Both the position numbers and the translations under genes were made by a program. A stretch of DNA of 13,907 nucleotides from Methanobacteriota archaeon (GTDB lineage: Archaea; Hydrothermarchaeota; Hydrothermarchaeia; Hydrothermarchaeales; SZUA-236), in NCBI GenBank assembly GCA_003230355.1, contig QIDD01000005.1:1-13907 (forward strand), read 5' to 3'. The notes below the pieces were generated by a model. The model had not been told where the DNA came from, ran no database searches, and was given only the letters and a program-made list of their open reading frames with translations. Shown here piece by piece: positions 332 through 13,907 of the stretch (position 1 is its first letter; each line of letters opens with the position of its first letter).

Positions 332-367
332 TTCCCTCGCCTTAAGGTAGGAGTTCAGCTTCGAATT

Positions 368-378
368 CATATATTTTT
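368..378 (-). promoter_or_regulatory. Putative TATA box for the secreted-protein gene
   Basis: On the minus strand this reads AAAAATATATG. It lies about 40 nt before the ATG at 331, which places a predicted start of transcription near 347 and leaves a leader of about 16 nt that contains the GGCGAGG element. This is inferred from spacing only. Confidence 0.35.
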
Positions 379-418
379 CGAATGCATAAAATAAGGGAGC
401 TTGAAATCTATATGTAAG

Positions 419-433
419 AAAAATAAAAAAAAA
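419..433 (-). terminator. Oligo-T terminator of the ftsZ cluster
   Basis: Read on the minus strand, a long T tract interrupted by one A lies about 30 nt beyond the stop codon of the last small gene (464). Archaeal transcription commonly ends at such T tracts without a hairpin. No stable stem is evident upstream of it. The 332-463 gap otherwise holds only the promoter of the next gene. Confidence 0.5.
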
Positions 434-463
434 GAGGGGGAAAAATGGAGTGAAAAAGAGCGA

Positions 464-565
464 CTATTCAGAGTGTTGTTCTTCTTCACCTTTGGCCGCG
501 CTGTTTTCAAAGTCGACGACGATGTACCAGTCCTGCCTGCTTAAGTGTGGTGTGTCTGTGTTCAT
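464..565 (-). CDS. 33-aa microprotein at the end of the ftsZ cluster
   Basis: ATG at 565 to TAG at 464 encodes 33 residues. The sequence starts MNTDTPHLSRQDW, has a short hydrophobic strand (YIVVDFEN) and ends in an acidic tail (KGEEEQHSE). It is too short for routine gene calling. It is supported by the ATGA overlap with the stop of the upstream gene (TGA at 562-564), the arrangement expected for translational coupling, and by the T-tract terminator just downstream. SRQDW at residues 9-13 loosely echoes NREEW in the upstream protein. There is no signal peptide or transmembrane segment. Function unknown; it may be a partner of the upstream protein. Chance is possible, but overlap, position and plausible composition together favour a real gene. 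Confidence 0.5.
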   Translation of the reverse strand: MNTDTPHLSRQDWYIVVDFENSAAKGEEEQHSE

Positions 566-1023
566 GAGCTGAATCCTTTTTTAGCGGTCAAGAGTTTTAT
601 CGCAATCTCCGGATCGATGTCAAAAACAATGAGATCATCCGGCCCAGGCGCAGCGTCACGGGGCTCCATGTTTTTATTTGTCTGAGTGTTTCTGCTCTGT
701 CCAAGCACAGGCTTTCCTCTGTCAAGCTCAGAGCGCAGGTCAGGGATTTGAACCACGGGAGTGTTTAACGAGGTTTTTTCAGACCCCTTTGCGAGACGTG
801 CCCTTTTCTCTGTAAGCCAGAGACCCGCGAATTTTTCAAGCCACTCCTCCCTGTTAAGTGAAGCCTCAGTCTGCGTCTTTTCAACTGAAACCTCCCTAGT
901 TTCAGACACATCCATATTCACACTTGGCTTAGTGATAGGTTCTATCGAGTGGACAAACTCTCCACCCTGTTCGCCTGCAAGCCAGAGGTTTGTAAACCGA
1001 TTCTGCCATTTCTCTTCATCCAT
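562..1023 (-). CDS. Uncharacterised 153-aa protein with two W-x2-[RK]F-x2-LWL motifs
   Basis: I do not recognise a family. The N-terminal half holds two copies of a short amphipathic motif: EEKWQNRFTNLWLAGE at residues 3-18 and REEWLEKFAGLWLTEK at 58-73. They are separated by about 40 residues rich in S, T, E and K that look disordered. A polar linker follows (75-125), then a hydrophobic C-terminal element (DDLIVFDIDPEIAIKLLTAKKG, about 129-150) that could be a small folded or docking segment. No membrane span or signal peptide is visible. The start is set at ATG 1023 because GAGGTGA lies 7 nt upstream; a TTG at 1029 would sit against that element. Only 12 nt separate it from the preceding gene, whose TGA is part of the ribosome-binding site. 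Inference: paired aromatic helices on a flexible chain suggest an adaptor or cross-linker, perhaps for FtsZ. Confidence 0.75.
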   Translation of the reverse strand: MDEEKWQNRFTNLWLAGEQGGEFVHSIEPITKPSVNMDVSETREVSVEKTQTEASLNREEWLEKFAGLWLTEKRARLAKGSEKTSLNTPVVQIPDLRSELDRGKPVLGQSRNTQTNKNMEPRDAAPGPDDLIVFDIDPEIAIKLLTAKKGFSS

Positions 1024-1035
1024 ACACAATTCACC

Positions 1036-1467
1036 TCAACAATTGATCCGTCCTAGAAAATCGATGAGCCGCTCTGCAAAGTCCGCGCGCACAAGCGATC
1101 CGCAGACAATACTATTTCCAAAGCTGTTGAACTCAGCCGTTTTCCTGTCGTCAAAAAGTATTATACAGGGCATCTCATGTTTCACAGTGGATATCGCTGT
1201 GTGATCATTTTTTGAAACACCCACCTTCGAGTCCACCACAAAAACTCCTGCATCAAGTCCCCCCGGCGGCGCAGCATATCTCTTTTTCACATGTTTTTCA
1301 AGGGATGCGTAGAGATGCAGCCGTCTCTGATTTGAAACAGTCACACCCAGATCCATCCACTCACCTGCGTCGTTAAAATCAACTTCAGTATTCTTCAAGA
1401 TATTTTTTATAAGCTGGGTCTTGCACTCATATCCCCCGCCCATAATCCCGATCCGTATCTCCTCCAT
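1036..1467 (-). CDS. Degenerate translational-GTPase-like (EF-Tu/SelB-type) G-domain protein
   Basis: The 143-aa product looks like a shortened P-loop G domain. Residues 4-24 (beta strand, GIMGGGYECKTQL, helix) match G1, but the last glycine of GxxxxGK[ST] is Cys15. GVTV at 41-44 fits G2 (RGITI in EF-Tu). ASLEKHV at 54-60 fits the DCPGH G3 region but lacks its Asp and Gly. LDAGVFVVDSKVGVSKND (71-88) fits the strand and loop before the G4 helix (MDGAILVVSAADGPMPQT in EF-Tu), and CIILFDDRK (101-109) sits where NKxD should be. GTP specificity residues are therefore missing, and domains II and III are absent. ATG 1467 is preferred over GTG 1470 because AGGTGA is then 6 nt upstream. Inference: a pseudo-GTPase with a structural or sensing role beside FtsZ. 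The family assignment rests on motif alignment by eye. Confidence 0.6.
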   Translation of the reverse strand: MEEIRIGIMGGGYECKTQLIKNILKNTEVDFNDAGEWMDLGVTVSNQRRLHLYASLEKHVKKRYAAPPGGLDAGVFVVDSKVGVSKNDHTAISTVKHEMPCIILFDDRKTAEFNSFGNSIVCGSLVRADFAERLIDFLGRINC

Positions 1468-1483
1468 CACAAATCACCTATGC

Positions 1484-1506
1484 ATAAAAATAAAAAAGAA
1501 AAAAAG
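1484..1506 (-). terminator. T-rich tract inside the ftsZ cluster (possible partial terminator)
   Basis: Between the winged-helix gene and the degenerate G-domain gene the minus strand carries consecutive T runs (T7, T6 and T5 separated by single bases). In archaea such a tract can cause partial termination, and its A/T-rich right part could also act as a weak TATA element for the three downstream genes. It may therefore set different expression levels for ftsZ and the distal genes. No hairpin was seen. Confidence 0.3.
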
Positions 1507-1513
1507 GGAGAGT

Positions 1514-1732
1514 TCATACGGCGAAGTACTTGTTAACGCCCTGACTCTTCTCCTTCATCAGGTACTGATACTGCATGTGATAGTAGATGAACATCTTAAG
1601 GTTCCCTTCATCCACAGCGTACCCGAGTTTTTTTATCCTTTTAGACACTTCCTTTCCATCTAGTTTCTCATCATTTTCAAAAACGCTCATAATCACGTTT
1701 ATCTTGTTGGAAGCGTTAGAGAATTTCTTCAT
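1514..1732 (-). CDS. Small winged-helix protein (72 aa)
   Basis: The protein reads as one winged helix-turn-helix domain. A first helix (KINVIMSVFENDEK) is followed by the HTH (LDGKEVSKRIKKLGYAVDEGNLKMFIYYHM, about 24-53) and a short wing (YQYLMKEKSQGVNKYFAV). The pattern 'DGKE(V/I)...(D)EGN....YHM...YL' recalls small archaeal wHTH regulators of the ArsR/MarR type that consist of little more than the DNA-binding domain. GGGGGT, the same ribosome-binding sequence used by ftsZ, lies 8 nt before the ATG. The gene starts 22 nt after the ftsZ stop and is surely co-transcribed with it. A job as autoregulator of the ftsZ cluster is plausible, but a wHTH can also serve in protein-protein contact. There is no effector-binding domain. 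Confidence 0.75.
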   Translation of the reverse strand: MKKFSNASNKINVIMSVFENDEKLDGKEVSKRIKKLGYAVDEGNLKMFIYYHMQYQYLMKEKSQGVNKYFAV

Positions 1733-1754
1733 TATTCCATACCCCCTGAAAAAC

Positions 1755-2942
1755 CTATAGAATATAGTCTATATCCAGCTTCGCCATTATTCCCTGCTTC
1801 TCCTCTGGTGGCAGCGGATCAAACCTTCGGCTCGGTCCTTCCCATGCCAGCTGGGTGGGTCTTCTTGGATTACGTTTCGGAGCTGAGAAATCTCGCGACG
1901 GAACTGTAATCGAAGTGCCTGATCCAACAATATCTGGGGATGAGACTCCTGTCATGATTATCATAACTTGAATCCTCTTTTCGAACTCTGGATCGATTCT
2001 TGCTCCCCAGATGACGTTTGCGTTGTCTCTGAGATAGGTTGTGGCTATTTCACCTATGGTGCTTGCCTCTTCGAGTGTGAGGTCTGGTCCGCCTGTGATG
2101 TGGATAAGCGCGCCTGTTGCCCCTCTATAGTCGACGTTGAGAAGCGGGTTTTCAAGGGCGTTGTTTACGGCTTCTATTGCGCGGTCTTTTCCTTCACCTT
2201 CTCCAAGCCCGATCATGGCGACTCCCTTGCCGACGCCGTCTCGCATCACGGCTCTTACGTCTGCGAAGTCGAGGTTTACAAGGCTTGGGATGGATATGGT
2301 TTCGCTTATGCCTTTTACCATTCTTGCAAGTATTTCATCGGCCACTCCGAATGCTTGGTCCACCGGCAGGTCCGGCACATAGCTGAGGAGTTTGTTGTTG
2401 TCAATGACGACCACGCTGTCGGCTGCGTCTTTCAGCTTGGTGAGCGCTTCCTTGGCCTTTACAATCCTTGCTCTTTCGATTTTGAAGGGCATTGTGACTG
2501 CGCCAACGACGACGGCTCCGTTTTCCTTTGCGATGTCGGCGATTATGGGAAGGCTTCCTGTCCCTGTGCCACCACCGAGTCCGGCTGTTACAAAGACGAG
2601 GTCTGCCTCTGACAGGACGTCTTTAAATACTGTTTTTGCGTCCAGTGCTGCCTGTCGTCCTACTTCTGGATATCCTCCGGCTCCCAGTCCTCTTGTGTTC
2701 TCATAGCCGATGAGGATCTTTTTGTCTGCCTTGGTGCGCTCTAGCTGCTGTTTGTCTGTGTTTACAGCAATTAGTTCTGCGCCGTCGATTCCGATGTTAC
2801 CAAGTCGGTTTAGGGTGTTGTTTCCTCCACCGCCTGATCCCACGACGACAATTCTTGCTTCCCCGAAATCGGCTGAATTCGCTTTCCTATTTTCCAGCTC
2901 TTTTTGTGTGTTTTCTTTTGCTTTTTTGTACAGAAATTCCAT
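1755..2942 (-). CDS. ftsZ: Cell-division GTPase FtsZ (archaeal)
   Basis: Tubulin-superfamily GTPase that polymerises into the division ring. All core elements are present: the N-terminal nucleotide-binding glycine loop GSGGGGNNT (35-43), NTD (61-63), TRGLGAGG (83-90), the tubulin signature GGGTGTGS (123-130) and the T7 synergy loop NLDFADVRAV (223-232), whose acidic residues complete the active site of the neighbouring subunit. It should therefore be a working, polymerising GTPase, unlike the degenerate G-domain protein encoded downstream. GATGALIHITGG (275-286) belongs to the C-terminal domain. From about 335 a proline/arginine-rich linker leads to a conserved-looking tip, KLDIDYIL, the probable docking peptide. 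I cannot tell from the sequence whether it is FtsZ1- or FtsZ2-type. AGGGGGT lies 5 nt before the ATG. First gene of a five-gene cluster and divergent from a wHTH gene. Confidence 0.97.
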   Translation of the reverse strand: MEFLYKKAKENTQKELENRKANSADFGEARIVVVGSGGGGNNTLNRLGNIGIDGAELIAVNTDKQQLERTKADKKILIGYENTRGLGAGGYPEVGRQAALDAKTVFKDVLSEADLVFVTAGLGGGTGTGSLPIIADIAKENGAVVVGAVTMPFKIERARIVKAKEALTKLKDAADSVVVIDNNKLLSYVPDLPVDQAFGVADEILARMVKGISETISIPSLVNLDFADVRAVMRDGVGKGVAMIGLGEGEGKDRAIEAVNNALENPLLNVDYRGATGALIHITGGPDLTLEEASTIGEIATTYLRDNANVIWGARIDPEFEKRIQVMIIMTGVSSPDIVGSGTSITVPSRDFSAPKRNPRRPTQLAWEGPSRRFDPLPPEEKQGIMAKLDIDYIL

Positions 2943-2947
2943 TGTTT

Positions 2948-3005
2948 ACCCCCTATATAGTTTGTGAATATGTGAACAAGTGTGAATACAACTAATATAT
3001 ATATC
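2948..3005 (-). promoter_or_regulatory. Promoter and ribosome-binding region of the ftsZ cluster
   Basis: The minus strand carries GATATATATATTAG (2992-3005), a good TATA box centred near 2999. The predicted transcription start is near 2973, giving a leader of about 30 nt that holds the ribosome-binding sequence AGGGGGT (2948-2954) before the ATG at 2942. Three direct repeats (listed separately) lie over the predicted start site. Confidence 0.55.
2963..2988. repeat. Three tandem TGTGAAYA repeats at the ftsZ start site (candidate operator)
   Basis: On the plus strand TGTGAATA (2963-2970), TGTGAACA (2971-2978) and TGTGAATA (2981-2988) follow one another with spacings of 0 and 2 bp. They sit between the ftsZ TATA box and the ftsZ start codon, where a bound protein would block initiation. 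The two flanking genes encoding winged-helix proteins are obvious candidates for the binder. The array is seen directly; its function is inferred. Confidence 0.45.
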
Positions 3006-3120
3006 TTTCTGATAATTCTAAATCGAAACATATTTATATCCAGGAGCTAAAATTGGATTTTCAAATCAAATAAACAGATGAACATGATAACACGACAACA
3101 AGTTAATAAACAAGTATCAA

Positions 3121-3131
3121 TATAATATAAA
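3121..3131 (+). promoter_or_regulatory. TATA box of the leaderless 139-aa wHTH gene
   Basis: TATAATATAAA is centred about 26 nt upstream of ATG 3152, exactly where an archaeal TATA box sits relative to the transcription start. The transcript should therefore begin at or within a few bases of the start codon, in keeping with the absence of a purine-rich ribosome-binding site in front of it. Confidence 0.6.
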
Positions 3132-3151
3132 AGGATTACGGTGAAAACCCC

Positions 3152-3571
3152 ATGAAGATAAAAATTGAAATCTCAGACGGGAAAACCAAAACAAACCTCC
3201 TAATCGAAGGTGAGGACCACTTCACAGCAAAACAAAAAATAGACCACTTCATCGACTTCGCATACAACACACCCAAAACAACGATTATCCCGAAATTCAC
3301 GCCTGAAATACTCCCTGGATGGCTCATGGAATACGATATGAAAAACCTCTCCCAAAAGGAAAAACTAAGTATTCTACTAGAGCGAGAGCACATAGGCGAA
3401 TGGGTCCGTTCACAAGACCTAAAAGAAGAATACGAACAGATATGGGGCGGCGAGATAAAACTCAGCTCAGTCTCAACCTACCTAGCGCGCTTCTACGAAG
3501 AAGGCAGAATTGAGCGCCAAGGGTCACGGGCTCAGAGAGAATACAAATTCACAGAAGAAATCCAAGTCTAG
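3152..3571 (+). CDS. Winged-helix protein with a beta-rich N-terminal domain (139 aa)
   Basis: Residues 1-35 alternate strand and helix (MKIKIEISDGKTKTNLLIEG, then HFTAKQKIDHFIDFA). A charged helix (about 63-87) follows, and the C-terminal ~55 residues form a winged helix: GEWVRSQDLKEEYEQIWG, SSVSTYLARFYEEGRIERQG and the wing RAQREYKF. Proteins of this shape are common in archaea as transcription factors, but I cannot name the family. The gene is divergent from ftsZ and shares its 209-bp control region, so it could regulate the ftsZ cluster, itself, or both. Its TATA box predicts a leaderless mRNA. The last three bases of its TAG are shared with the oppositely directed DUF447 stop, with both stops lying in one CTAG palindrome. 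Sure as a gene, moderate on DNA-binding, low on target. Confidence 0.85.
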   Translation: MKIKIEISDGKTKTNLLIEGEDHFTAKQKIDHFIDFAYNTPKTTIIPKFTPEILPGWLMEYDMKNLSQKEKLSILLEREHIGEWVRSQDLKEEYEQIWGGEIKLSSVSTYLARFYEEGRIERQGSRAQREYKFTEEIQV

Positions 3572-4176
3572 CCGACAAAGCTGTTCACAAAATCAACCAC
3601 CGCCTCCGACTCCTCCGGCGGCAGCGTCTTTTTCACAACCTCCAAATACCCCTGGACATCTTTTTCCATGCCCCGCGAAAGGGAAACAGCGATTTCAATC
3701 GCTGCAAAAAGTCCCCGGTTCGGAGCCACGGGAAAAGGAGATAAAACAACAATGTTCACCGCCTTTAAGGTCATCTTCGCAACCGACGCAGGGCCGAAAC
3801 TGTCCCTCCTGTTAACATATTCACAACTCAGCAGCTCAGCCTCAACATAGGTGTTTGTGCCTTTAATATAAGGTGCAGAAACAACCTTCGCCCGCAGCAC
3901 ATCCAAAGTCTCAACAACCTTAGAACCCTTGTGCCTGCCAACAAGAGCGCATCGCAAAAAAAGCAGAGGATCAAAAACAACGTTAACAACGCAGCACCCC
4001 TCTCGCCTGATGTTTTCAAAAGTATCAGTGTCCCGATGAACCTTTAGCAAAATATTGTCGCCTCCAAGACCTAAAACACCCATCGGAGCCGCATTAGGCG
4101 CTCCATCGCTGTGATAGGTTGTAACAATCACCTCAGAAAGACGTCCCCTGCAAATCCCGATACTTGAAAGCACCAT
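3568..4176 (-). CDS. DUF447-family flavoprotein (FMN-binding split-barrel)
   Basis: The N-terminal region LSEVIVTTYHSDGAPNAAPMGV is the hallmark of the archaeal DUF447 family, which has a flavoredoxin-like FMN-binding split-barrel fold. In family members the segment around NAAPMGV and the later R-EGCCVVNVVFDPLLF (about 57-73) build the flavin pocket and dimer. The C-terminal third (about 150-200) is helical. The natural substrate is not established; the gene often occurs among archaeal cofactor-biosynthesis genes, which does not apply here. Length (202 aa) is normal. AGGAGGT lies 9 nt before the ATG. It starts 24 nt after the stop of the response regulator and should be on the same transcript. 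Its stop overlaps that of the convergent winged-helix gene by four bases. Confidence 0.85.
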   Translation of the reverse strand: MVLSSIGICRGRLSEVIVTTYHSDGAPNAAPMGVLGLGGDNILLKVHRDTDTFENIRREGCCVVNVVFDPLLFLRCALVGRHKGSKVVETLDVLRAKVVSAPYIKGTNTYVEAELLSCEYVNRRDSFGPASVAKMTLKAVNIVVLSPFPVAPNRGLFAAIEIAVSLSRGMEKDVQGYLEVVKKTLPPEESEAVVDFVNSFVG

Positions 4177-4200
4177 AGGATAAAAACCTCCTAATAACCC

Positions 4201-5841
4201 TTATTTTGCGGCCAATATCCCTGCATGCTTCAAAGAGTGTTTGACCAAGATCTTATCAGCCCAGTCAATGGCGTCTTCAAGAGGCATAACATCAGCCAGG
4301 AATACAAAGGCTATCTCGCTGATCTTCTTTTTCAGATCCTCGTTTTCAAGCATCTTTTCAGTGGAGATGAACTCGTCAAAAACAGTGATGATAATACGGG
4401 TTGCCTCCTCCTCTCCATAGAAAACTCCCAGCGATTCTGAAAGCTCGTCAAAAACGCCGGTAACCTTGGAGAGCCCACTCTTCTCAGCGAGCTTAATATA
4501 CCTATTAAAAGACTCGATTTTCGATGTTGCCACAGGATTCGGTGGTGAGACAACCTTGAAATCAGGCGTAATCGAAAGAACAGTTGAAACAGTGTCCTTC
4601 ATCTTAAAGAGCAGCTCGTCTAGTTTCCTCCCAGTGTCGGTGAGATAATAGATGCCTTTATGATCCTGATCGATAATCCCCACTTGCTTGAGAATCTTGA
4701 GGTGAAAGCTAAGCTTCGAAGGATTTGAGTAGCCAAGGCTCTGCAGCATATCGGTAAATGTGGATTTACCAGCCATCTTAAGGATATCAAGTATGTCTTT
4801 ACGCTGAGGGTTTGAAATCGCCTTCACAATCGCTTCGATCTGAACACTTGCAAGATAGTTGAAGATCTGCATCTGCTGATCCCGACGCAGATCACCCACA
4901 TAAACCGTTATACCCGCGTTTTTCTCAATCGATATTCCGTGGAGCTTGTCAATAAACTTAAGAACCTCTGGAAAAGGCGTTTTATCAACAGCATCTAAAA
5001 GTGATTCAATAAAGACAACAGAACTTGGATTTGCCTTTACAAAAGACTTGATCTCAGATTCAACCTCCCCTAGATCACGGGTGTCATGGACCTCTACACC
5101 CTCAACGTTGATTTGGGACTTTTCCTTAGATGCTGCAAATGAAATTCCTTTGCTCCCATCGAAAACAGCCCGTGTAAACTCGTTTATACCCTCCAGATTT
5201 TCTTCCTCACCCAGGAGATGGATGAAGTTTTTCTTCTCCTCCTTTGCAGGGTTGAAAACAAGGCATGTGTCGATTGTTTCTTTACGCTTTTTACAATAGG
5301 AGACCTTCACACACTCTAGGCAGCTGTTCACAGCCTGCTTTATAGTGCACTCGTTTACAATGCATGTGTCCTTTCTATCTACCAGGCAGCCCTTGCATAT
5401 TTCATAAACAAACTGGTCGCATACACGGCAGTCGATACCGCACTTTGATGGAATAGACCCGGCGTCAAAATGGGGTTCACCAAGGACCCAGCGCACTGCT
5501 TTGAGAAGTTTTTCCTTATTCACAGGCTTTGTGATATATCCGTCGCACTGGGCATGTTGAAAACTCTTGAGCTTGAAATCCTGCTGAAACTTGATGGTAA
5601 GCATCATAATCGGGATGTGCTTCAGATCTTCATCGGCTTTAATAGTCTTTGCAACATCCCATCCATCCATCTCAGGCATCATAATATCGAGAAGTATGAG
5701 ATCAGGATTTTCTACCTTCACAAGATCAAGCGCCTCACGGCCGCTGTGCGCTTCCACCGCGGAAAAACCCTCTTTTTCCAGTATCTTTCTGATAATGAAC
5801 GTAAACTCCGGCTCATCATCAACAAGCATTATCTTGGTCAT
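4201..5841 (-). CDS. Response regulator: REC - Cys-rich (DUF3795-like) - DUF835-like - ArsR HTH - helical tail
   Basis: Residues 1-120 are a complete receiver domain: acidic D8/D9, phospho-acceptor D52 in LLDIMMPEMDG, T82 and K105 in TKP. Residues 134-193 hold eleven cysteines (CGIDCRVC, CKGC, C160, C165, CLEC, C183, C193), a pattern like DUF3795 and probably binding zinc or an Fe-S cluster. Residues ~245-335 resemble DUF835 (SSVVFIESLLDAV, FPEVLKFIDKL). Residues ~336-410 form an ArsR-type winged helix (NPQRKDILDILKM, SNPSKLSFHLKILKQVGII, GIYYLTDTGRK). A helical C-terminus of ~130 aa is unassigned. The protein should join phosphorelay, metal/redox sensing and DNA binding in one chain. ATG 5841 puts the usual MTKIMLVDDE start first; a TTG at 5847 is the alternative. 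No histidine kinase is nearby. DUF447 follows in the same operon. Confidence 0.9.
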   Translation of the reverse strand: MTKIMLVDDEPEFTFIIRKILEKEGFSAVEAHSGREALDLVKVENPDLILLDIMMPEMDGWDVAKTIKADEDLKHIPIMMLTIKFQQDFKLKSFQHAQCDGYITKPVNKEKLLKAVRWVLGEPHFDAGSIPSKCGIDCRVCDQFVYEICKGCLVDRKDTCIVNECTIKQAVNSCLECVKVSYCKKRKETIDTCLVFNPAKEEKKNFIHLLGEEENLEGINEFTRAVFDGSKGISFAASKEKSQINVEGVEVHDTRDLGEVESEIKSFVKANPSSVVFIESLLDAVDKTPFPEVLKFIDKLHGISIEKNAGITVYVGDLRRDQQMQIFNYLASVQIEAIVKAISNPQRKDILDILKMAGKSTFTDMLQSLGYSNPSKLSFHLKILKQVGIIDQDHKGIYYLTDTGRKLDELLFKMKDTVSTVLSITPDFKVVSPPNPVATSKIESFNRYIKLAEKSGLSKVTGVFDELSESLGVFYGEEEATRIIITVFDEFISTEKMLENEDLKKKISEIAFVFLADVMPLEDAIDWADKILVKHSLKHAGILAAK

Positions 5842-5874
5842 CTTCAAAACCCAAGCTAAATTAACGTACTACAA

Positions 5875-5886
5875 CAAATATATTTT
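5875..5886 (-). promoter_or_regulatory. Putative TATA box of the response-regulator/DUF447 operon
   Basis: The minus strand reads AAAATATATTTG here, about 39 nt before ATG 5841. This predicts a start near 5855 and a leader of roughly 14 nt. Confidence 0.4.
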
Positions 5887-6019
5887 GGTTAATAAAAGTA
5901 GTTTTCTATGTTTTGTGGAAGGGGGGAGGCGGTGGAAAAAAAGGACATGGGTGTAAAGTATGGGATGTCAGTTTCACACCACCGCGTTCTTCCCTAGCCA
6001 AATTTTTTAGCGGCTGGAT

Positions 6020-6082
6020 ATTATATAACGATTTGTTCAATTAAATTTGAATGGCTCCGGTTTTCTGGGCAATTTATTTATT
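6020..6082 (+). promoter_or_regulatory. Promoter region of the aminotransferase operon
   Basis: Two TATA-like elements precede ATG 6106. ATTATATAAC (6020-6029) would give a leader of about 50 nt, and TTTATTTATT (6073-6082) lies about 29 nt before the ATG and would give a leaderless or nearly leaderless transcript. No strong ribosome-binding sequence precedes the ATG, which favours the nearer element. The rest of the 5848-6105 divergent gap shows nothing I can name. Confidence 0.4.
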
Positions 6083-6105
6083 ACAGATGCTAGAAAATCA
6101 TCTCA

Positions 6106-7278
6106 ATGAAATTTTCGAAGAGAACCTCTTACATCGATATCTCCGGTATCAGGCGGATGTTTGAGCTTTCAAAAGGAGAGGGCACCATCAACCTCGGCCT
6201 TGGCGAGCCGGATTTTCCGATTCCACTGGAGTCGAAAGAAGCGGTTAGGCAGGCGTTGGATGCAGATTTTACTCATTACACGCCTGGCAAAGGCATAATC
6301 GAGCTTCGAGAGGGGATTGTAAAAAAACTTAAGAGAAACGGAATCAGCACGGACTCTGAGGAAATTATCGTAACCTCCGGCGCGTCTGAGGCATTAGAAA
6401 TCGCGCTCCTCACGCTTGTTGACAGCGGTGATGAAGTGATAATCCCTGACCCAGGCTTTGTGTCATACGCGCCGCTCACACGCATAGCAGGCGGCGTGCC
6501 AGTCTCCTTTGAGGTGAAGGAAGACAGTAGTTTTGAGTTTGACCCGGCTGCAATCGGGGAGAAGATCACCGACCGCACAAAAGCAATAATCTTGAATTCG
6601 CCTGGTAATCCCACAGGCTCTGTTTCCAGTAAAAAAGCTGTAAAAGAGATCGCAGGACTTGCTGATGACCACGGCGTATATGTGATTTCAGACGAGGTCT
6701 ATGACGAGATAATCTACGAAGGAGAGCACTACAGCATCGGGAGATACACAGATATGGCGATCACCATTAACAGCTTTTCCAAAACATATGCAATGACAGG
6801 TCTTCGATTGGGGTATCTGCAGGCAAAGCTGGAGGTGGTTGAGGAGATTTTCAAGATTCATCAGTATGTTCAGGCCAGCACCTGCTCGCTTTCACAGGCG
6901 GCCGCCTTGGCTGCATTAACATCAGAGTCAGATTACACCTCTGGGATGGTGAAAACACTGGGAAAACGCAGGAATTTGATTGTAGATTTACTCAACGAAA
7001 TCGAAGGAATCCGGTGTCTGAAACCTGGGGGTGCGTTTTATGTGTTTCCAAATACCGCTGAACTAGGCAAGTCGGCTGAGCTTGCAATGTCGATTCTGAA
7101 AAACACAGGAGTCATCGTAACGCCGGGAACTGCCTTCGGAAAGGGCGGCGAGGGATTTATCAGGCTATCATACGCCACATCCGAGGAAAACATAATAGAG
7201 GGATTGAAGCGGATATCAGAATACCTCAATATTTATATGGAGCAGACGATAAGAGGAAAAGGAGGTTACTTAAAATGA
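6106..7278 (+). CDS. PLP-dependent class I/II aminotransferase
   Basis: Fold-type I transaminase of the aspartate aminotransferase superfamily. Visible landmarks are NLGLGEPDFPIP (29-40), Y58-TPGKG for the cofactor region, VTSGASEAL (89-97), the NSPGNPTG loop (164-171), SDEVYD with D196 and Y199 holding the pyridine ring, the Schiff-base lysine K226 in NSFSKTYAMTGLRLGY, the phosphate-binding arginine in TGLRLGY, and a substrate-carboxylate arginine in GFIRLSYA near the C-terminus. Length (390 aa) is standard and all key residues are intact. The amino-acid specificity cannot be read from the sequence; aspartate, alanine or aromatic substrates are all possible. First gene of a three-gene operon; its TGA overlaps the ATG of the next gene by four bases. 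Confidence 0.95.
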   Translation: MKFSKRTSYIDISGIRRMFELSKGEGTINLGLGEPDFPIPLESKEAVRQALDADFTHYTPGKGIIELREGIVKKLKRNGISTDSEEIIVTSGASEALEIALLTLVDSGDEVIIPDPGFVSYAPLTRIAGGVPVSFEVKEDSSFEFDPAAIGEKITDRTKAIILNSPGNPTGSVSSKKAVKEIAGLADDHGVYVISDEVYDEIIYEGEHYSIGRYTDMAITINSFSKTYAMTGLRLGYLQAKLEVVEEIFKIHQYVQASTCSLSQAAALAALTSESDYTSGMVKTLGKRRNLIVDLLNEIEGIRCLKPGGAFYVFPNTAELGKSAELAMSILKNTGVIVTPGTAFGKGGEGFIRLSYATSEENIIEGLKRISEYLNIYMEQTIRGKGGYLK

Positions 7279-8297
7279 TCAAGCTCATAAAAAGGCTATC
7301 CGAAGCCCACGGCGTCCCTGGGAATGAAGATGAGATAAGATCGATAATAGAATCAGAGCTAAAGGGCTGCTGCGAAATCGAGATCGATGTCATGGGCAAT
7401 CTCATCGCAAAGCGGGGGAATGGGAAAAAGAAGGTGATGCTTGCTGCACATATGGACGAGATCGGCCTTATGGTGCGCCACATCGACGAGAACGGGTTCA
7501 TCAAGTTCATAACATTGGGCGGTTTTTTCGACCAGACACTACTCAATCAGCCCGTGGTTGTGCATACAAAGAACGGGAGGATACCAGGTGTCATCGGATC
7601 GAAGCCGCCTCACCTCATGGAGGAAAAGGAGCGGGACAAAGTGGTGAAGGCCAAGGACATGTTCATCGACGTGGGCGCAGGTGATTCTAAGGCTGCGAAG
7701 AAACTCGGTGTCACAATAGGCGACTATATTACATTTGACATGCCCTTTAAGGAGCTGAAATCAGGCCTTGTTTCTGGTAAGTCCTTTGACAACCGCCTGG
7801 GCTGCGCGGTGATGATCGAGGTTATGAAAACTGTGAAAACAAATCATACAGTTGTTGCCGTGGGCACGGTGCAGGAGGAGGTTGGGCTTAAGGGTGCGCG
7901 AACCGCGGCATTTAAAATTGAGCCTGATGTAGCACTTGCATTGGATGTTGCGCCGGCTGGGGATTTTCCGGGTACAAAGCCTGAGGAATCGAGGATAAAG
8001 CTTGGCGGCGGGCCTGTGATAACGGTTGCCGATGGAAAGGGCCGCGGGATCATCACCCACCCATCGGTGCGGGACAGTTTAATCGCCGCGGCAAAGAAGG
8101 GGAAGATCCAATATCAGGTGGAGGTTGGTGACGGTGGGACAACAGACGCAACAGCGATTCAGCTCACAAGGGGCGGCGTGCTCTCAGGCGTTGTATCTGT
8201 GCCGACACGTTACATTCACACCCCGGTTGAGGTTGCAGGTAAAAAGGATGTCTCTGACACTGTAAAACTGGTTGTCGCATATATTGAAAGCCTTTAA
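7275..8297 (+). CDS. M42-family aminopeptidase (TET-type glutamyl aminopeptidase/endoglucanase-like)
   Basis: A dimetal aminopeptidase of clan MH that in archaea forms large tetrahedral (TET) cytosolic assemblies trimming peptides released by the proteasome. The expected metal and catalytic residues are present: H59 and D61 in AAHMDEIG, D172 in KSFDNRLG, E201 (general base) and E202 in VGTVQEEVGLKG, D224 in LALDVAP, and H315 in TRYIHTPVEV. GDGGTTDAT (286-294) is the usual substrate-side loop. Length (340 aa) is typical. GGAGGT lies about 8 nt before the ATG, inside the end of the aminotransferase gene. Residue preference (acidic, basic or neutral) is not predictable here. Pairing with an aminotransferase suggests a role in amino-acid recycling. 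Confidence 0.93.
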   Translation: MIKLIKRLSEAHGVPGNEDEIRSIIESELKGCCEIEIDVMGNLIAKRGNGKKKVMLAAHMDEIGLMVRHIDENGFIKFITLGGFFDQTLLNQPVVVHTKNGRIPGVIGSKPPHLMEEKERDKVVKAKDMFIDVGAGDSKAAKKLGVTIGDYITFDMPFKELKSGLVSGKSFDNRLGCAVMIEVMKTVKTNHTVVAVGTVQEEVGLKGARTAAFKIEPDVALALDVAPAGDFPGTKPEESRIKLGGGPVITVADGKGRGIITHPSVRDSLIAAAKKGKIQYQVEVGDGGTTDATAIQLTRGGVLSGVVSVPTRYIHTPVEVAGKKDVSDTVKLVVAYIESL

Positions 8298-8316
8298 ACG
8301 GCTCATGGGTAGTTAG

Positions 8317-9093
8317 ATGGAGCAAGATCAGGTTAACATTTTTTTCGTGGGAACCGCGGGCAGCGGCAAAACCGCTCTTACACAAGCCTATTATGAATGG
8401 CTGAAAGAACGGGGGCTGGACGTGCTCATTGTCAACCTCGACCCGGGGGTTGAGCTTCTGCCTTATGCGCCGGAAATTGATGTGCGCGAGTGGATAACAA
8501 CGCGGGATGTGATGGAGAAATATGGCGTTGGCCCTAACGGCGCGCAGATACTGGCGGCTGATCTTCTGGCTGTGCAGTTTCGGGAGATACAGGATCTTCT
8601 TGAGGAGCAGCGCGCCCAATATGTGCTCTTTGACACCCCCGGTCAGATCGAGCTCTTCGCATACAGGCAGGCGAGCAAAGTAGTTTTAGAGGCTGTGGGC
8701 GAGCAAAACTCGATTATCTCATTTTTATTCGACCCTGTTCTATCGAGCACGCCATCCGGCTTTGTGTCTCTTCTCATGCTTTCAGCGTCGATTCAATTCA
8801 GGTTTCAAACACCTTTTCTAAACCTGCTCTCAAAATCTGACCTTTTGGGCGAGGAAAAAGTTGGGGATGCATTAGACTGGGCGTCTGATCTGAGCACTCT
8901 CTATGACGCGCTTCTCTCTGAAACCCATACAATGCAGAATGAGGCGAACATCGAGTTTTTCAGGGCACTTGAAGGCATGGGCAGCGCAAGCGGGCTCACA
9001 CCTGTCTCGGCTAAAACCTATGTGGGACTTGAAGACCTTTATACCTCGATTCAGCAGACCTTCTTTGCAGGCGAAGACAACATGCCGGACTGA
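8317..9093 (+). CDS. GPN-loop GTPase
   Basis: SIMIBI-class GTPase of the archaeal/eukaryotic GPN family. Motifs in order: P-loop GTAGSGKT (12-19), NLDPGVELLPY (40-50), the family-defining insertion GPNG (72-75), G3 DTPGQIELF (106-114) and G4 SKSD (172-175), with SAKTY as G5. The eukaryotic relatives (GPN1-3) help assemble RNA polymerase II; the archaeal protein forms a homodimer in which the GPN loop reaches across to the other active site, and its cellular role is less clear. Length (258 aa) is normal. It starts 19 nt after the aminopeptidase stop with only a weak GGGT upstream, and is likely the last gene of the operon. Its stop lies only 9 nt before a copy of the rnpB promoter, which suggests rnpB was originally its immediate neighbour. 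Confidence 0.95.
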   Translation: MEQDQVNIFFVGTAGSGKTALTQAYYEWLKERGLDVLIVNLDPGVELLPYAPEIDVREWITTRDVMEKYGVGPNGAQILAADLLAVQFREIQDLLEEQRAQYVLFDTPGQIELFAYRQASKVVLEAVGEQNSIISFLFDPVLSSTPSGFVSLLMLSASIQFRFQTPFLNLLSKSDLLGEEKVGDALDWASDLSTLYDALLSETHTMQNEANIEFFRALEGMGSASGLTPVSAKTYVGLEDLYTSIQQTFFAGEDNMPD

Positions 9094-9102
9094 ACGATTT
9101 CA

Positions 9103-9157
9103 TCATCATTAGTTTTTTTATACGTTAATCTGGAGATGTTATTCGGCGAGCCGCAGG
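9103..9157 (+). repeat. Left 55-bp direct repeat: orphan rnpB promoter plus first 13 nt of rnpB
   Basis: This stretch matches 13412-13465 base for base except that its T run has seven T (9113-9119) instead of six. It contains the TATA box, the start site and GGCGAGCCGCAGG, the first 13 nt of RNase P RNA, and then diverges. No RNase P RNA follows it. The T7 run may also end the GPN-operon transcript. As a pair with the right copy it outlines an inserted segment. Confidence 0.9.
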
Positions 9158-9369
9158 AAATTTATACACATCATATTTTTTTGTTTCAATTCTGCATGTC
9201 CAGCTACTGAGGTGGCAGGCTGTGGTACAATCATTAAAAGCTGGCAGCAGTGAATAGGACTAACATCGTATTGAAATTAACAGCGTAAACATAACCTCAG
9301 ATTAATTACGTCTCCGGTATAACTTTGTCTCAGATGAAATCTCTACTTTCCCCGCTCTCAGAGTAGTTT
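9158..9369. other. Non-coding stretch between the left repeat and the helicase stop
   Basis: No gene is visible. A T7 run at 9176-9182 could terminate transcripts coming from the orphan rnpB promoter after about 30-35 nt, or those from the GPN operon. CCAGCT and AGCTGG form a 6-bp inverted repeat with a wide spacing around 9200-9245. Nothing here resembles rnpB sequence past nucleotide 13 of the RNA. Confidence 0.4.
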
Positions 9370-12138
9370 TTATGAAAGTAACCCCAATTTCTTCAGTCTT
9401 GATTTAATACCACTTCTTTGTCTTCCGAATAATTCCATAAGCTCTTCTATTGTTTTACCAGATTTGTACTCGACAATTAACTTTTCATCTTCTTCTTTTG
9501 TCCATGGCTCATACGCTCGGGGCTGTATTCTTTGAATTTCCTTTACTGAATAGGTCTTGGATCTATCAGATACCTCCTCTTTGAATGAGAAAGTGGTTTT
9601 ATCTTCAACTGTTCTGGGCTCAATACGATGTTTATTGCAATAATCAACGATTTCTTTTAAAAATAAGCCTCCGTATTTCTCTAACTTTCTTTCACCAACA
9701 CCGTTAATCCTTTGAAAGTCCGATAGACTTCGCGGGAAGTGAGTTGCCATCGCTTTCAAACTCAAATCATGAAAGATGATATACGGTGGCACGCCCTCTG
9801 CATCACCGAGCTCTTTTCTCAAACTTCTTAAAATTTCAAATAAACCTCGATCGAAGTCATCATCAAAATATTTTCGTGTTATCTGAACTTCTTCTGTCGG
9901 CTTGGTCAACAAAACCCTTTCTTTTCCGGATAAAATATCGTGACTCTTTTGACTTAGTTTTACGATGGGGTATCTGTCACCTTCCGATTTCAGATAACCA
10001 AGTTGAATGAGTTCCCTGATAAAAACTTGCCACTGCTTTTTTGAGTATTCTCTGCCAGTGCCATAAGCTGTTAGAGTATCGTGCTGATTGCGAATTATCT
10101 TTTGACTTCTTGAGCCATATAAAACATCAGCAATGTAATTTACTCCAAATCTCTCTTTAACCTGGGAAACGCACGATATGATTTTCTGAGCGATATCGGT
10201 TCCATCGATCGTTTCTTTCGGCTCAAGACAACTATCACAATTTCCACATTTCACTTCATCGAATCGCTCACCAAAGTAATTCAATAAAATTTTTCTGCGA
10301 CAGCCCCGACACTCACAAAACTCAACCATATCATGCAACTTTTTATACGCAATTCGTTTCTCCCTTTCATCCGATTTCTGCTCGATGAAATACTCTATTT
10401 TTCTCTTGTCGCCATGACTAAAAAAGAGAACGCAATCACTTCTAAGTCCGTCTCTTCCTGCCCTCCCTGTCTCTTGATAATAGCTTTCAAGATTCTTTGG
10501 CAGGTCATAATGGATCACAAAACGTATATTCGACTTATCTACCCCCATTCCAAAAGCTATTGTTGCCACGATTATCTCAACATCGTCTCTAACAAATTTA
10601 TCCTGCGTTTCAGTCCTTAAATCAGATTCCAACCCTGCATGATAAGGCAAAACACGATGTCCCTCTTTTTGTAGTTTGTTTGATAAATTGTCAGCGGATT
10701 TACGGCTGTAACAATAAATTATCCCTGGATCCTTTTTATGGTTCTTTAAATACTGGAGTAATTGATGATAGGCGTTATCATTTGGTTTGACCTGATAGAA
10801 TAGATTTTCTCGGTTTAAACTCGCTTTATATATCTTTGGATTGGCTAGCTTCAACTGTGTTATAATATCCTTTTGTACCTCGATGATAGCGGTTGCTGTA
10901 AGTGCAATTAAAGGAATTTGTGGGAAATGCTCTTTAAGCGATTTCAACTGACGGTATTCGGGTCTAAACTCGTGTCCCCATTCTGAGATACAATGGGCTT
11001 CGTCAACGGCAATCAAGTTGATATTCAAACTCTGTAAAAATGACAAGAAGTCGGGTAGCATTATTCTTTCGGGAGCCACATAAAGAATGCTGATTCTGTT
11101 TTCCCGCAATTCCGTTTTTATGTGTTGTATTTCATCAAAACTCAATGAGCTGTTGATATAGGCTGCAGCAATCCCATTTGCTCGCAAACCATCAACCTGG
11201 TCCTTCATTAAGGCGATAAGCGGTGAAACAACGATCGTTACGCCATCGAAAAGAAGGGCTGGTAATTGATAGCATAAAGATTTACCGCCACCAGTTGGCA
11301 TTAGGACAAAAACATCGTTTTTTAGCAGAATGTCCTTGATGATATCCTCTTGAAGAGGAAGAAATGAAGTATAACCAAAGTATTTTTGTAGCACTTGATG
11401 CGCAGACTCCATGTTAACTTCCTTTCCGTAACCCTCCTCTCTATAATCCGGAAATGCATATAAGCCGGAGACTTGTAGCCAGTGCACATCTTTAAAGAGC
11501 CTTGTGAGCCCAACACGAAGGAAGAGATCGCTTTGGTTCAACCTCCGTCGTAGTTCGTCGCTAATAGAACCCGGATTCTTACCCATTTGAATCCGTTGAA
11601 CATCACAGTACTCCCTAAAAGCACAATCCGTGACTTGCAAATTGTAAATCTCTCCGCCCATATCCGAAAATGTTATCCTGTATTTGTATTTCCCTTCTTC
11701 CTCCATCGAATAATTAATATCCAAGAGATTTGCTACTTTTATCGTTCCCAATGATCTTCTTCCTTTCCCTGGATTTGTATATCGTCCCTCATGAATCTCC
11801 ACTCCAAATATCTCCTTAACCGATCCATCCGATATACTTTCCAAGAACTTTTTCCTTTCCTCTTCCGAGAGAAATCCTATTAATCTCGGTCTATAGTTCA
11901 TATTTATCTCCCAGTCCTCTGTATGTGGTGGTTTAGGTAAAGGACTGAGAAAATCAAATTCAATTTTTGCAAAGGGTTTTATGATTTGCCTACCTTCTCC
12001 ATCAAAAAGATAACTCTCTCGAATACTAGGATAAGGGATTTCGGGTCTTATTGGTCTCCCTTCTTCATCAATCCCAAATATGCAGACTCTACCACCGTGC
12101 ATCTTACTTAAGTCGGTGATAATCACCTCTTTTTTCAT
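9370..12138 (-). CDS. Multidomain RecQ-family helicase with N-terminal dual-OB-like and C-terminal Myb/SANT-like domains
   Basis: A 922-aa superfamily 2 DNA helicase. Residues ~1-225 do not belong to normal RecQ; ITDLSKMHGGRVCIFGIDEEG, PPHTEDW and the two beta-rich halves fit a dual-OB (DuOB) nucleic-acid-binding module, a tentative call. The RecQ core starts near 245: Walker A PTGGGKS (281-287), DEAHCISEWGHEFRPEY (379-395), ALTATA (412-417), QETGRAGRDG (555-564). The zinc subdomain has C613, C631, C634 and C637 (CGNCDSC). An RQC winged helix (~645-740) and an HRDC domain (~760-835, with INGVGERKLEKYG) follow. The end (878-922, EPWTKEEDEKLIVEY, GRQRSGIKSRLKKLGL) is a Myb/SANT-like HTH. All catalytic motifs are intact. 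Last gene of a three-gene operon, overlapping the previous stop by ATGA. Inference: DNA unwinding in defence or repair rather than housekeeping. Confidence 0.93.
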   Translation of the reverse strand: MKKEVIITDLSKMHGGRVCIFGIDEEGRPIRPEIPYPSIRESYLFDGEGRQIIKPFAKIEFDFLSPLPKPPHTEDWEINMNYRPRLIGFLSEEERKKFLESISDGSVKEIFGVEIHEGRYTNPGKGRRSLGTIKVANLLDINYSMEEEGKYKYRITFSDMGGEIYNLQVTDCAFREYCDVQRIQMGKNPGSISDELRRRLNQSDLFLRVGLTRLFKDVHWLQVSGLYAFPDYREEGYGKEVNMESAHQVLQKYFGYTSFLPLQEDIIKDILLKNDVFVLMPTGGGKSLCYQLPALLFDGVTIVVSPLIALMKDQVDGLRANGIAAAYINSSLSFDEIQHIKTELRENRISILYVAPERIMLPDFLSFLQSLNINLIAVDEAHCISEWGHEFRPEYRQLKSLKEHFPQIPLIALTATAIIEVQKDIITQLKLANPKIYKASLNRENLFYQVKPNDNAYHQLLQYLKNHKKDPGIIYCYSRKSADNLSNKLQKEGHRVLPYHAGLESDLRTETQDKFVRDDVEIIVATIAFGMGVDKSNIRFVIHYDLPKNLESYYQETGRAGRDGLRSDCVLFFSHGDKRKIEYFIEQKSDEREKRIAYKKLHDMVEFCECRGCRRKILLNYFGERFDEVKCGNCDSCLEPKETIDGTDIAQKIISCVSQVKERFGVNYIADVLYGSRSQKIIRNQHDTLTAYGTGREYSKKQWQVFIRELIQLGYLKSEGDRYPIVKLSQKSHDILSGKERVLLTKPTEEVQITRKYFDDDFDRGLFEILRSLRKELGDAEGVPPYIIFHDLSLKAMATHFPRSLSDFQRINGVGERKLEKYGGLFLKEIVDYCNKHRIEPRTVEDKTTFSFKEEVSDRSKTYSVKEIQRIQPRAYEPWTKEEDEKLIVEYKSGKTIEELMELFGRQRSGIKSRLKKLGLLS

Positions 12139-12569
12139 AGATGCACCGCTTCAACATCGTCCCAATGCTCCTTAAGATATTCTACCAATAATCGCCTATG
12201 ACAATGATCCGCTGTTGGTTCGCTGCAGAGAAAACATGTTTTCTTCTTAAAAAACGATTTATCGAGCTTATCTAAGACTTTTCTGATCTTAAGGAGTTCG
12301 ATATACTCTTTAACATAAACATTCCAATCTTTACTTTTGATATATCGGTTTCGCATCTCTTTTGTTGGCGCAAGAAACTGGAAGAGATAGTAACCAATAT
12401 CACATAACTCCTTTAAAAAATACTCCAAATCACCCTTTTTCGTAAATCCAGCGAGTTGAGATGTAGTATTAAGCCTTATATCTACTACTTGTTCGATATT
12501 GTTTCTCTTCAATGCTTCAAAGAATTCTCTTGCGCTCTTTTTAGTAAAACCAACTGTATAAATCCTCAT
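12135..12569 (-). CDS. DUF488-family protein, second copy (144 aa)
   Basis: Family landmarks are YTVGFTKKS (4-12) near the N-terminus, VVDIRLNT (28-35) and the C-terminal CFLCSEPTADHCHRRLL (112-128). The spaced Cys, Glu, Cys, His and Arg of the last motif look like a conserved active or metal-binding site. The biochemical activity of DUF488 is not established to my knowledge. It differs strongly from the neighbouring DUF488 protein outside these motifs, so the two are old paralogues or were recruited separately, not a recent duplication. Both of its ends overlap neighbours by ATGA (12566-12569 and 12135-12138), so translation of all three genes is probably coupled and stoichiometric. C115 and C123 are the family cysteines; C112 is extra. 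Confidence 0.88.
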   Translation of the reverse strand: MRIYTVGFTKKSAREFFEALKRNNIEQVVDIRLNTTSQLAGFTKKGDLEYFLKELCDIGYYLFQFLAPTKEMRNRYIKSKDWNVYVKEYIELLKIRKVLDKLDKSFFKKKTCFLCSEPTADHCHRRLLVEYLKEHWDDVEAVHL

Positions 12570-13090
12570 ATTAGCGGAAGTTGAATCATCTTCTTTTCTG
12601 GTTTTTCTATTCTCTCATTGGTTCCATCCCCCCGTATATGAAAGACTGTAATACCTTCCCTCAACAAGCTCTGTGAAATTAAGTGATGCCTATGACACGC
12701 ATAAGGATCTTCTTCGCTACACATTATCACGGTTCGCTTCTTATTTGCGAAGTCAATCAATGCCGAGATGCCCTCTTTATACCATCCTTTTTTCATTACA
12801 GTTCCATAAACTATTTTCCCATTTTCATAACAGTCTTCATCTTTCGGTTTCCCTCCAAGAACGTTTCCCACATATTCATCTTCTATAAAAACATACTCAA
12901 TCCCCTTCGCTTCGAGTTTCCTTTTTATATTTTTAATATTGAACTGAGGGGCATATTTACTAAACGGGGTGCTCCTTACATCCACCAACACCTTGATTCC
13001 GTTCAATAAGCTCAAAAACTTTTCAAATTCAACGTTGCTGTGTCCGACTGTATAAATAGTAGCTTGATTTAAGACTTTCTCTGATTGCAT
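12566..13090 (-). CDS. DUF488-family protein, first copy (174 aa)
   Basis: IYTVGHSNVEFEKFLSLL (12-29) and VLVDVRSTPFSKYAPQFN (34-51) are the classic DUF488 N-terminal motifs, and VIMCSEEDPYACHRHHLIS (121-139) is the classic C-terminal one. GNVLGGKPKD (75-84) is a longer insert also seen in larger family members. The tail (about 150-174) is polar and ends in LPLI. The protein is soluble, without signal or membrane segments. First gene of the operon, with a TATA box about 34 nt upstream and no clear ribosome-binding sequence, so a very short leader is likely. Its TGA overlaps the ATG of the second DUF488. Two DUF488 proteins ahead of a DuOB-like RecQ suggest one complex acting on nucleic acid. 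That is inference from gene order only. Confidence 0.9.
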   Translation of the reverse strand: MQSEKVLNQATIYTVGHSNVEFEKFLSLLNGIKVLVDVRSTPFSKYAPQFNIKNIKRKLEAKGIEYVFIEDEYVGNVLGGKPKDEDCYENGKIVYGTVMKKGWYKEGISALIDFANKKRTVIMCSEEDPYACHRHHLISQSLLREGITVFHIRGDGTNERIEKPEKKMIQLPLI

Positions 13091-13120
13091 TTTATCATTC
13101 TTTTAGTTGTTGTGTTTCCA

Positions 13121-13127
13121 TATAAAA
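13121..13127 (-). promoter_or_regulatory. TATA box of the DUF488-DUF488-RecQ operon
   Basis: TTTTATA on the minus strand is centred about 34 nt before ATG 13090, giving a predicted start near 13098 and a leader of about 8 nt. The lack of a ribosome-binding sequence fits that. Confidence 0.5.
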
Positions 13128-13411
13128 CTATCCGATATGAGTCTGAAAAGCAGTTTCAGTAAAACAAGGATCATGCCATTATAAACTCCTCCTCGAGAAT
13201 ACTACTTCCCTAGTCGCATTGCGACTATCAATTCCTTCGGAATTAAGATTGGGATGAATTGAGGCCGTCTCACGAACTCTTCTCTTGCCCCCCATACTTT
13301 CCGCTTTATAGCTCCTATTAAGAATCCCCGGCCCCTATTAACTGTTGTTAATATCACGTTATGATTCTTCATAACTCTGTGCCGTGGGCGGATGTCAATT
13401 CTAGTAAAACT
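13128..13411. other. Gene-free stretch with several small hairpins
   Basis: No coding region or tRNA is visible. TAGTCGC-att-GCGACTA (13211-13227) and AATTCC-ttc-GGAATT (13230-13244) are adjacent perfect hairpins. TCAATTC (13229-13235) can instead pair with GAATTGA (13256-13262), so two exclusive folds exist. ATTAAC and GTTAAT (13337-13352) form a further hairpin. No repeat unit recurs, so this is not a CRISPR array. It could be a small structured RNA or the inner end of the island. Confidence 0.35.
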
Positions 13412-13465
13412 TCATCATTAGTTTTTTATACGTTAATCTGGAGATGTTATTCGGCGAGCCGCAGG
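13412..13465 (+). repeat. Right 54-bp direct repeat, overlapping promoter and 5' end of intact rnpB
   Basis: Identical to 9103-9157 apart from one fewer T in the T run (T6 at 13422-13427). The match starts at TCATCATTAG and stops 13 nt into rnpB, where the left copy goes on to AAATTT and this one to GCACC. It supplies the working promoter of rnpB. Confidence 0.9.
13422..13431 (+). promoter_or_regulatory. TATA box of rnpB
   Basis: TTTTTTATAC is centred about 26 nt before the predicted first nucleotide of RNase P RNA (13453), which is the ideal archaeal spacing. Confidence 0.65.
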
Positions 13466-13814
13466 GCACCTCACCCTGATAAAGCATATTTGCTTTTGAA
13501 ATAGTTTGCTTCGGCAAACTAGGGGAGGAAACTCTGCCCATCGTGCAAAAAACCCGACAAACACCTGAGAAGGTGGGCTCTGGAGCAGAAATGATATTTT
13601 CCGCCTGTGCACATATATGTTGATGATGACGCAGGTCTGAAACGCTGGGCGGGAAAGTGAAACGTGCCATCCTCGGGGATGCAAGCCCAAACAAGCTGCC
13701 AGTGACAATTTTGCAGGAGGCGCGTGGTAGGGCGCTTAGACGAATGGTGCCAAACTGGGAAATCACGTTCAATCGTGATCCTATGAACAGAAGGCAGGTT
13801 ACTCGCGGCACGCC
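13453..13814 (+). ncRNA. rnpB: RNase P RNA
   Basis: The catalytic RNA that trims tRNA 5' leaders. Helix P1 closes the molecule: GGCGAGCCGC (13453-13462) pairs with GCGGCACGCC (13805-13814) over ten positions with one A-A mismatch. CR-I is GAGGAAACTC (13525-13534). Helix P4 forms between AACTCTGCC (13530-13538) and GGCAGGTT (13793-13800) and keeps the universal bulged U (13533). CR-III reads GATGCAAGCCCAAAC (13678-13692), CR-IV lies at about 13736-13751 (TTAGACGAATGG) and CR-V contains ACAGAAGGCAGGTTA (13787-13801). GTTTGC-TTCG-GCAAAC (13504-13519) is a strong UUCG hairpin in the P3 position. About 362 nt, normal for archaea. All protein-coding frames across it are incidental. Confidence 0.93.
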
Positions 13815-13844
13815 ACCCTAAATTCATAAATCGAAAGTGAGAGC

Positions 13845-13907
13845 TTAGTAAAATTTGAAGAAGACGTTTAACACAAGTCCAAGTGTAACTGCTGCGGTTA
13901 AAAACCA
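13845..13907 (-). CDS. C-terminal end of a probable membrane protein (runs off right edge)
   Basis: An open minus-strand frame enters from the right edge and ends at TAA (13845-13847) after 20 codons. The residues WFLTAAVTLGLVLNVFFKFY are strongly hydrophobic and end in K-F-Y, as for a last transmembrane helix with a short cytoplasmic end. The gene would converge on rnpB with a 30-nt gap. With so little in view this is a composition-based call. Confidence 0.45.
   Translation of the reverse strand, partial: WFLTAAVTLGLVLNVFFKFY

Follow-up and report, generated by a model that had tools for sequence, protein, structure and literature searches.

In a 13,907-nucleotide stretch of the genome of a hydrothermarchaeal archaeon (Methanobacteriota archaeon, GTDB lineage Hydrothermarchaeota, SZUA-236; NCBI GenBank assembly GCA_003230355.1, contig QIDD01000005.1, positions 1 to 13,907; hereafter the window) we found an island that lies between the gene for a GPN-loop GTPase (GPN) and rnpB, the gene for RNase P RNA, is bounded by a direct repeat of the rnpB promoter region and carries a cassette of candidate defence genes. 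We put at about even the chance that this is an old island, itself devoid of an integrase, that entered at the 5' end of rnpB by site-specific recombination. The genome of the window (G000; the window is on contig C5) is a draft (1.27-Mb assembly, ~81% complete). It was compared with a relative of the same family (G002) and with the only other genome of the genus in the comparison (G001, locus L053 on contig C95), which we read as archaeon BMS3Abin16, a candidate hydrothermarchaeotal genome of which the GPN gene (BDTI01000095.1) is 95% identical to that of the window. A passage in PMC6759336 describes BMS3Abin16 as a metagenome-assembled genome of Candidatus Hydrothermarchaeota with sub-seafloor massive sulfide as its source, and a second genome of its subgroup is BMS3Bbin16 (BDTZ01...).

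The two copies of the repeat (55 nt for copy 1, 54 nt for copy 2) differ solely by one T within a T-run, as had been noted in an earlier, sequence-only reading of this stretch. They share an exact 44-mer (at 9114 and 13422), the longest exact direct repeat of the window, and since the next-longest one outside the 55/54-bp repeat measures 15 bp, the repeat lies far beyond chance. Its edges are sharp, the flanking sequences outside the copies being unrelated, and copy 1 starts nine nt after the end of GPN (9093). Only copy 2 continues into RNase P RNA, where the family RNaseP_arch (RF00373) matches 13454-13813 over model positions 1-288 of 288 with 156.4 bits (cut-off 84), so that the target gene is restored to full length at one end of the island. 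Because the match begins at 13454, a predicted start, the repeat comprises the promoter region and 12 nt of the RNA, or 13 when counted from 13453, which is the number claimed before. The T-rich TTTTTTTATACG in copy 1 may be TATA-like. The repeat was found at two places only in each of the two genomes of the genus, without a further copy in either assembly, and it is absent from the same-family relative.

The interior of the island is a single minus-strand operon of three genes (DUF488, DUF488 and DuOB-RecQ) and has a GC content of 38.5%, versus 46.8% over 1001-9093 and 51.9% in rnpB, in agreement with the AT-richer, one-operon interior described in the sequence-only reading. The adjacent, same-strand DUF488 genes encode the best PADLOC matches to PDC-M45B (E 2.1e-47) and PDC-M45C (E 3.7e-55). 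For the DuOB part taken by itself no PADLOC model gave a match, and for RecQ no M45 model was seen among the 25 of 41 matches listed. PADLOC and domain content together suggest that the cassette consists of candidate defence genes. In a set of 23 genomes (the window's own and those of its genus, family, order and class) a helicase match was present in 22, and close matches (E = 0) were confined to the two genus members, the next-best helicase (37% identity) being found in G004. The closest homologues of the cargo, among the best 120 per list, come from metagenomes, ANME/Syntrophoarchaeum and Nitrospiraceae. Judging from the sequences, the cargo is foreign, its composition and distribution differing from those of the host, since a close helicase occurs only in the genus and the nearest homologues belong to other groups. 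Five homologues (P0001, P0003, P0004, P0006 and P0008) carry DuOB and align with the RecQ of the window over the full length of the latter, and the order DUF488-B, DUF488-C, DuOB was found again in G254. Counting that of the window, 6 genomes among 394 contain a relative of DUF488-B (E <= 1e-20). At the five other loci no exact repeat of 20 bp or more flanks the genes (one locus, L223, spans only 3.5 kb), and at two of them (L224 and L226) repeats are present to one side of the genes. We found no open-licence paper that combines two of the three elements DUF488, RecQ and DuOB. In G004 we also observed a different RecQ-like helicase (L216, 4497-7007) that has an unrelated-looking N-terminal part, is 37% identical to part of the window's RecQ and may represent another defence system.

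Table 1. Features of the island and its borders in the window
Feature	Position	Strand	Remark
GPN-loop GTPase, left host neighbour	8317..9093	+	last ~160 bp within the putative recombination tract common to the sister species
Repeat copy 1, duplicating the promoter region and first ~12-13 nt of rnpB but severed from it	9103..9157	+	also in G001
Non-coding left island end, AT-rich	9158..9369		95.3% identity to sister species, within the putative recombination tract
RecQ helicase (DEAD, Helicase_C, Zn-binding, RQC, HRDC) with N-terminal DuOB, 922 aa	9370..12138	-	
Stretch absent from the island of G001: most of DuOB and both DUF488 genes	11424..13078		1.65-kb difference
DUF488 protein, PADLOC PDC-M45C, 144 aa	12135..12569	-	
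DUF488 protein, PADLOC PDC-M45B, 174 aa	12566..13090	-	
Non-coding right island end	13091..13411		88% identity to G001
Copy 2 of the direct repeat, runs on into rnpB	13412..13465	+	
rnpB, archaeal RNase P RNA	13454..13813	+	RF00373

The island is also present in the sister species, BMS3Abin16, in the identical order GPN, repeat, RecQ, repeat, rnpB, and its two copies of the repeat differ by three substitutions and one indel, versus the one indel in the window. This bears on the possibility that the repeat is an artefact of assembly, which the sequence-only reading had named as something that would speak against an island. Both genomes are short-contig metagenome assemblies, which would favour such an artefact; nevertheless, two separate assemblies agree in the order and contain copies with different substitutions, and positions 1002-11423 of the window align unbroken, in one piece, to the contig of the sister species. 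A sister species with the same order and differently diverged copies makes misassembly very unlikely, and we rejected it.

Another difference between the two species is the 1.65-kb stretch that is missing from the island of BMS3Abin16. The RecQ open reading frame begins there with MQSEGVNMGSAYQ..., i.e. with the first codons of DUF488-B fused to RecQ. We read this as a derived deletion in BMS3Abin16, because full-length DuOB homologues exist and the gene order recurs in G254; the deletion would have put the start of DUF488-B in frame with RecQ, and a plain RecQ is what remains.

Identity between the species is not uniform along the locus. It amounts to 85.6% over 1002-8929 versus 96.3% over 8930-9093 (the end of GPN), 95.3% over 9158-9369 and 97.8% over 9370-10230, and the best single change point falls at 8932, inside GPN (log-likelihood gain 87.6). 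The tract 8930-11423 is mostly 93-98% identical to the sister species against a background of ~86%, and within RecQ there is a patch (10231-10330) of only 78% identity. Divergence at fourfold sites was 0.28-0.43 in six host gene segments; the differences numbered 4 of 25 sites at the 3' end of GPN, 3 of 91 in the C-terminal part of RecQ and 15 of 119 in the next part. These patterns indicate that the tract is the product of recent recombination between the species and is mosaic inside RecQ. The right end of the island (13091-13411), with 88% identity, is comparable to the host genes, and from this ordinary between-species divergence it follows that the right junction is old. Most likely, the island predates the split of the two species, and its left part was subject to a later exchange through homologous recombination, which entered via GPN and not at the repeat. 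The two copies of the repeat appear to have exchanged sequence within each genome, which is the simplest reading of columns 41 and 43, where the copies agree within a genome and differ between genomes; columns 3, 32, 35 and 37 single out copy 2 of the sister species, and column 11 is the extra T found in copy 1 of the window only.

The same conservation can be taken to mean that copy 1 is kept as a working promoter (for a short transcript or as a GPN terminator) and that the island is incidental. The copies in the window differ by one indel even though the island looks older than the species split, the chance of 54 unchanged bases at ~13% divergence being about 0.0005, and the sequence just after copy 1 is the 95.3% conserved left end. 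However, this conservation is explained by the recombination tract, which spans copy 1 and also ~160 bp of GPN, and gene conversion between the copies would account for their similarity. After copy 1 no Rfam family was found, and the fold of 9140-9320 is unremarkable, with a folding energy no better than that of shuffled sequence (z 0.95). We therefore consider a retained promoter improbable. For both island ends nothing exceeded the Rfam cut-offs, the matches being weak (E 0.73 and 1.7), and we rejected a structured RNA both behind copy 1 and at the right end of the island.

The target duplications known from transposases are shorter than 55 bp. By analogy with known elements, a sharp repeat of ~55 bp at both ends together with a restored target is the kind of trace that an archaeal tyrosine integrase leaves. 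According to a review on archaeal tyrosine recombinases (PMC8371274), several of the archaeal integrase families commonly have cores of 40-60 bp, and sites can be just 8 bp; the length of the repeat falls within the former range and thus counts for integration. In the course of events that we propose, the ancestor of the genus would have received the island with its candidate defence cassette at the 5' end of rnpB through a single site-specific event, in which a ~55-bp core on a circular element recombined with an identical core at the rnpB promoter. The promoter and first ~12 nt from which rnpB is now driven (copy 2) would have come with the element, copy 1 beside GPN would be the displaced host half-site, and the recombinase would have been lost or have acted in trans. 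Vertical inheritance, partial exchange between the sister species through GPN, the deletion in one of them and exchange of sequence between the two repeat copies within each genome would have followed.

The genome of the window encodes a single PF00589 protein, a 441-aa tyrosine recombinase (phrog_1) on a 4.8-kb contig (C97; L082/L214), where it adjoins a DUF4258 protein and a small protein that is weakly MqsA-like (below the Pfam cut-off). The window contains no tRNA gene. We also found, in an archaeal draft genome, a HEARO RNA (RF02033, 98.5 bits; L018, 207-432) near a GPN gene.

A number of results weigh against integration. A match to a recombinase family was obtained for none of the three island proteins, in agreement with the lack of an integrase noted in the sequence-only reading, no PF00589 protein (E <= 0.001) was detected in G001 or G002, and the contig with the tyrosine recombinase of G000 has neither a tRNA gene nor the 55-bp repeat. 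Other islands ending in the 55-mer, which the sequence-only reading had suggested looking for, did not turn up: the genomes, loci and viral contigs searched contain no second element with this core. In 214 other loci (2.69 Mb) the best match to the repeat or the island ends had E 0.04 and covered 29 bp on another contig of G000, and viral contigs gave 0 matches to a 20-base piece of the core. Copy-to-copy exchange has two sites in its support. The empty site that had been predicted for relatives (the stop of GPN, then ~9 nt, a single promoter and rnpB) was encountered in none of the genomes searched; the sole other genus member compared also carries the island, and G002 has other neighbours at both GPN and rnpB. 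Among 12 listed rnpB loci GPN lies upstream only in G001, and of the 20 genomes with GPN and rnpB only G000, G001 and G006 have both on one contig (~540 kb apart in G006), so that adjacency was not seen outside the genus, with the limit that in drafts with the two genes on separate contigs it could exist across a contig break.

We extended the comparison to 133 archaeal rnpB neighbourhoods, one per genome (the window, 12 loci and 120 loci), taken from the places listed for the 238 of 257 genomes with an rnpB match, minus some mainly on short contigs or at contig ends. The stretches reached at least 4.4 kb upstream in 121 of the 133 and 9 kb in 101. A direct repeat that reaches into rnpB was found in two of them, both of this genus, with 150 bp next to rnpB masked in the survey, where cores of ~20 bp or less could escape. 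These two related draft genomes count as one event, which likewise tells against integration, and with 2 of 133 neighbourhoods we rejected the idea that rnpB is a common archaeal hotspot. At 12 other rnpB loci repeats were detected (E <= 1e-3), all of them outside the RNA and some inverted. For instance, ~1 kb upstream of rnpB in G251 (L184) there is a 54-bp, 98% identical inverted repeat of the stretch 97-150 bp upstream, perhaps longer in reality given that the query ended at 150 bp, which is possibly the end of a mobile element. In G177 (contig C33, L153) imperfect repeats adjoin rnpB on its downstream side and have many further occurrences within 19 kb.

The gene order is loose at family distance. 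In G002 a divergent radical SAM gene lies at a distance of 62 bp from rnpB, genes of the ThiS and TtuA types come after rnpB, and a TrkA-N gene and a Na/H exchanger come after GPN. A TtuA-type gene is located downstream of rnpB in 5 of the 12 loci (G001, G002, G005, G006 and G007; judged by eye except in G002), and the neighbour on the upstream side differs from locus to locus. In G000 the radical SAM gene is on another contig, with no rnpB-like sequence seen in front of it, and the TrkA-N genes of G000 and G001 are on other contigs too, the latter being preceded by a Fic gene. With such loose order the predicted empty site is no more than a possible ancestral arrangement. The converse arrangement, i.e. 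the order GPN-RecQ-DUF488-rnpB conserved without repeats in distant relatives, which had been named as speaking against an inserted island, was not observed.

That the gene order around GPN and rnpB differs between the genus and G002, that homologous recombination has acted at the locus and that no integrase was found (neither among the island proteins nor, as PF00589, in G001 and G002) are in line with a rearrangement without a site-specific recombinase. The 55 bp could have been duplicated when an rnpB segment moved beside GPN, or a circle with a captured rnpB promoter could have recombined by homology, the cassette having come along or later. This needs at least two coincidences, in that the breaks must have fallen precisely at the repeat and a foreign cassette precisely between its copies, whereas site-specific integration is expected to leave a sharp direct repeat of 55 bp at each end of the island. 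We consider such a rearrangement the main rival of integration, with a chance of about one in three. Integration at rnpB, as first proposed from the sequence, gained from the two-copy structure in a separate sister assembly, the foreign-looking cargo and the precedent for 5' targeting, and lost from the lack of an empty site, a second element and an integrase.

Tentatively, and with somewhat less confidence than an even chance, we suggest that rnpB serves in Hydrothermarchaeota as an integration site for mobile elements, in which the element captures the RNA with its own promoter and ~12 nt, excision or loss resets transcription, and the copies keep exchanging sequence. If so, RNase P RNA joins tRNA and tmRNA as essential RNA genes used for docking, by an unusual route that involves the 5' end and a replaced promoter, and the candidate defence cassette sits on a single-copy, always-needed gene, hard for hosts to lose. 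Also under a rearrangement the locus would indicate that a defence-like cassette devoid of mobility genes can persist and be passed from one species to another through ordinary recombination. Limited searches of open-licence literature brought up no paper that describes rnpB as an attachment site; in the portions of PMC2516327 and PMC4256840 that mention it, rnpB is merely a marker or part of a cited title, and 'RNase P' is absent from the main text of PMC8371274. If integration is right, the process is of a known kind and its target, rnpB, is new.

The cassette resembles the PADLOC candidate system PDC-M45, in that both DUF488 proteins are best matches to M45B and M45C and the order recurs in G254, and differs from it in that DuOB is fused to RecQ here, as in several homologues. 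Integrases of bacterial islands target the 5' end of dusA, a housekeeping gene, according to PMC4482086; insertion of an island at the 5' end of a housekeeping gene is what the two cases share, whereas the dusA islands are bacterial, have a protein-coding target and contain an integrase. The pTN3-like integrases, as described in PMC8371274, target the 5' half of tRNA genes, the gene being restored and expressed from the integrase promoter of the element. The island lacks what defines these elements, i.e. a pTN3-type integrase and a tRNA target: its target is rnpB, its repeat is mostly promoter region and no integrase is present. In both cases, however, the 5' part of an RNA gene is targeted and the promoter would be brought by the element.

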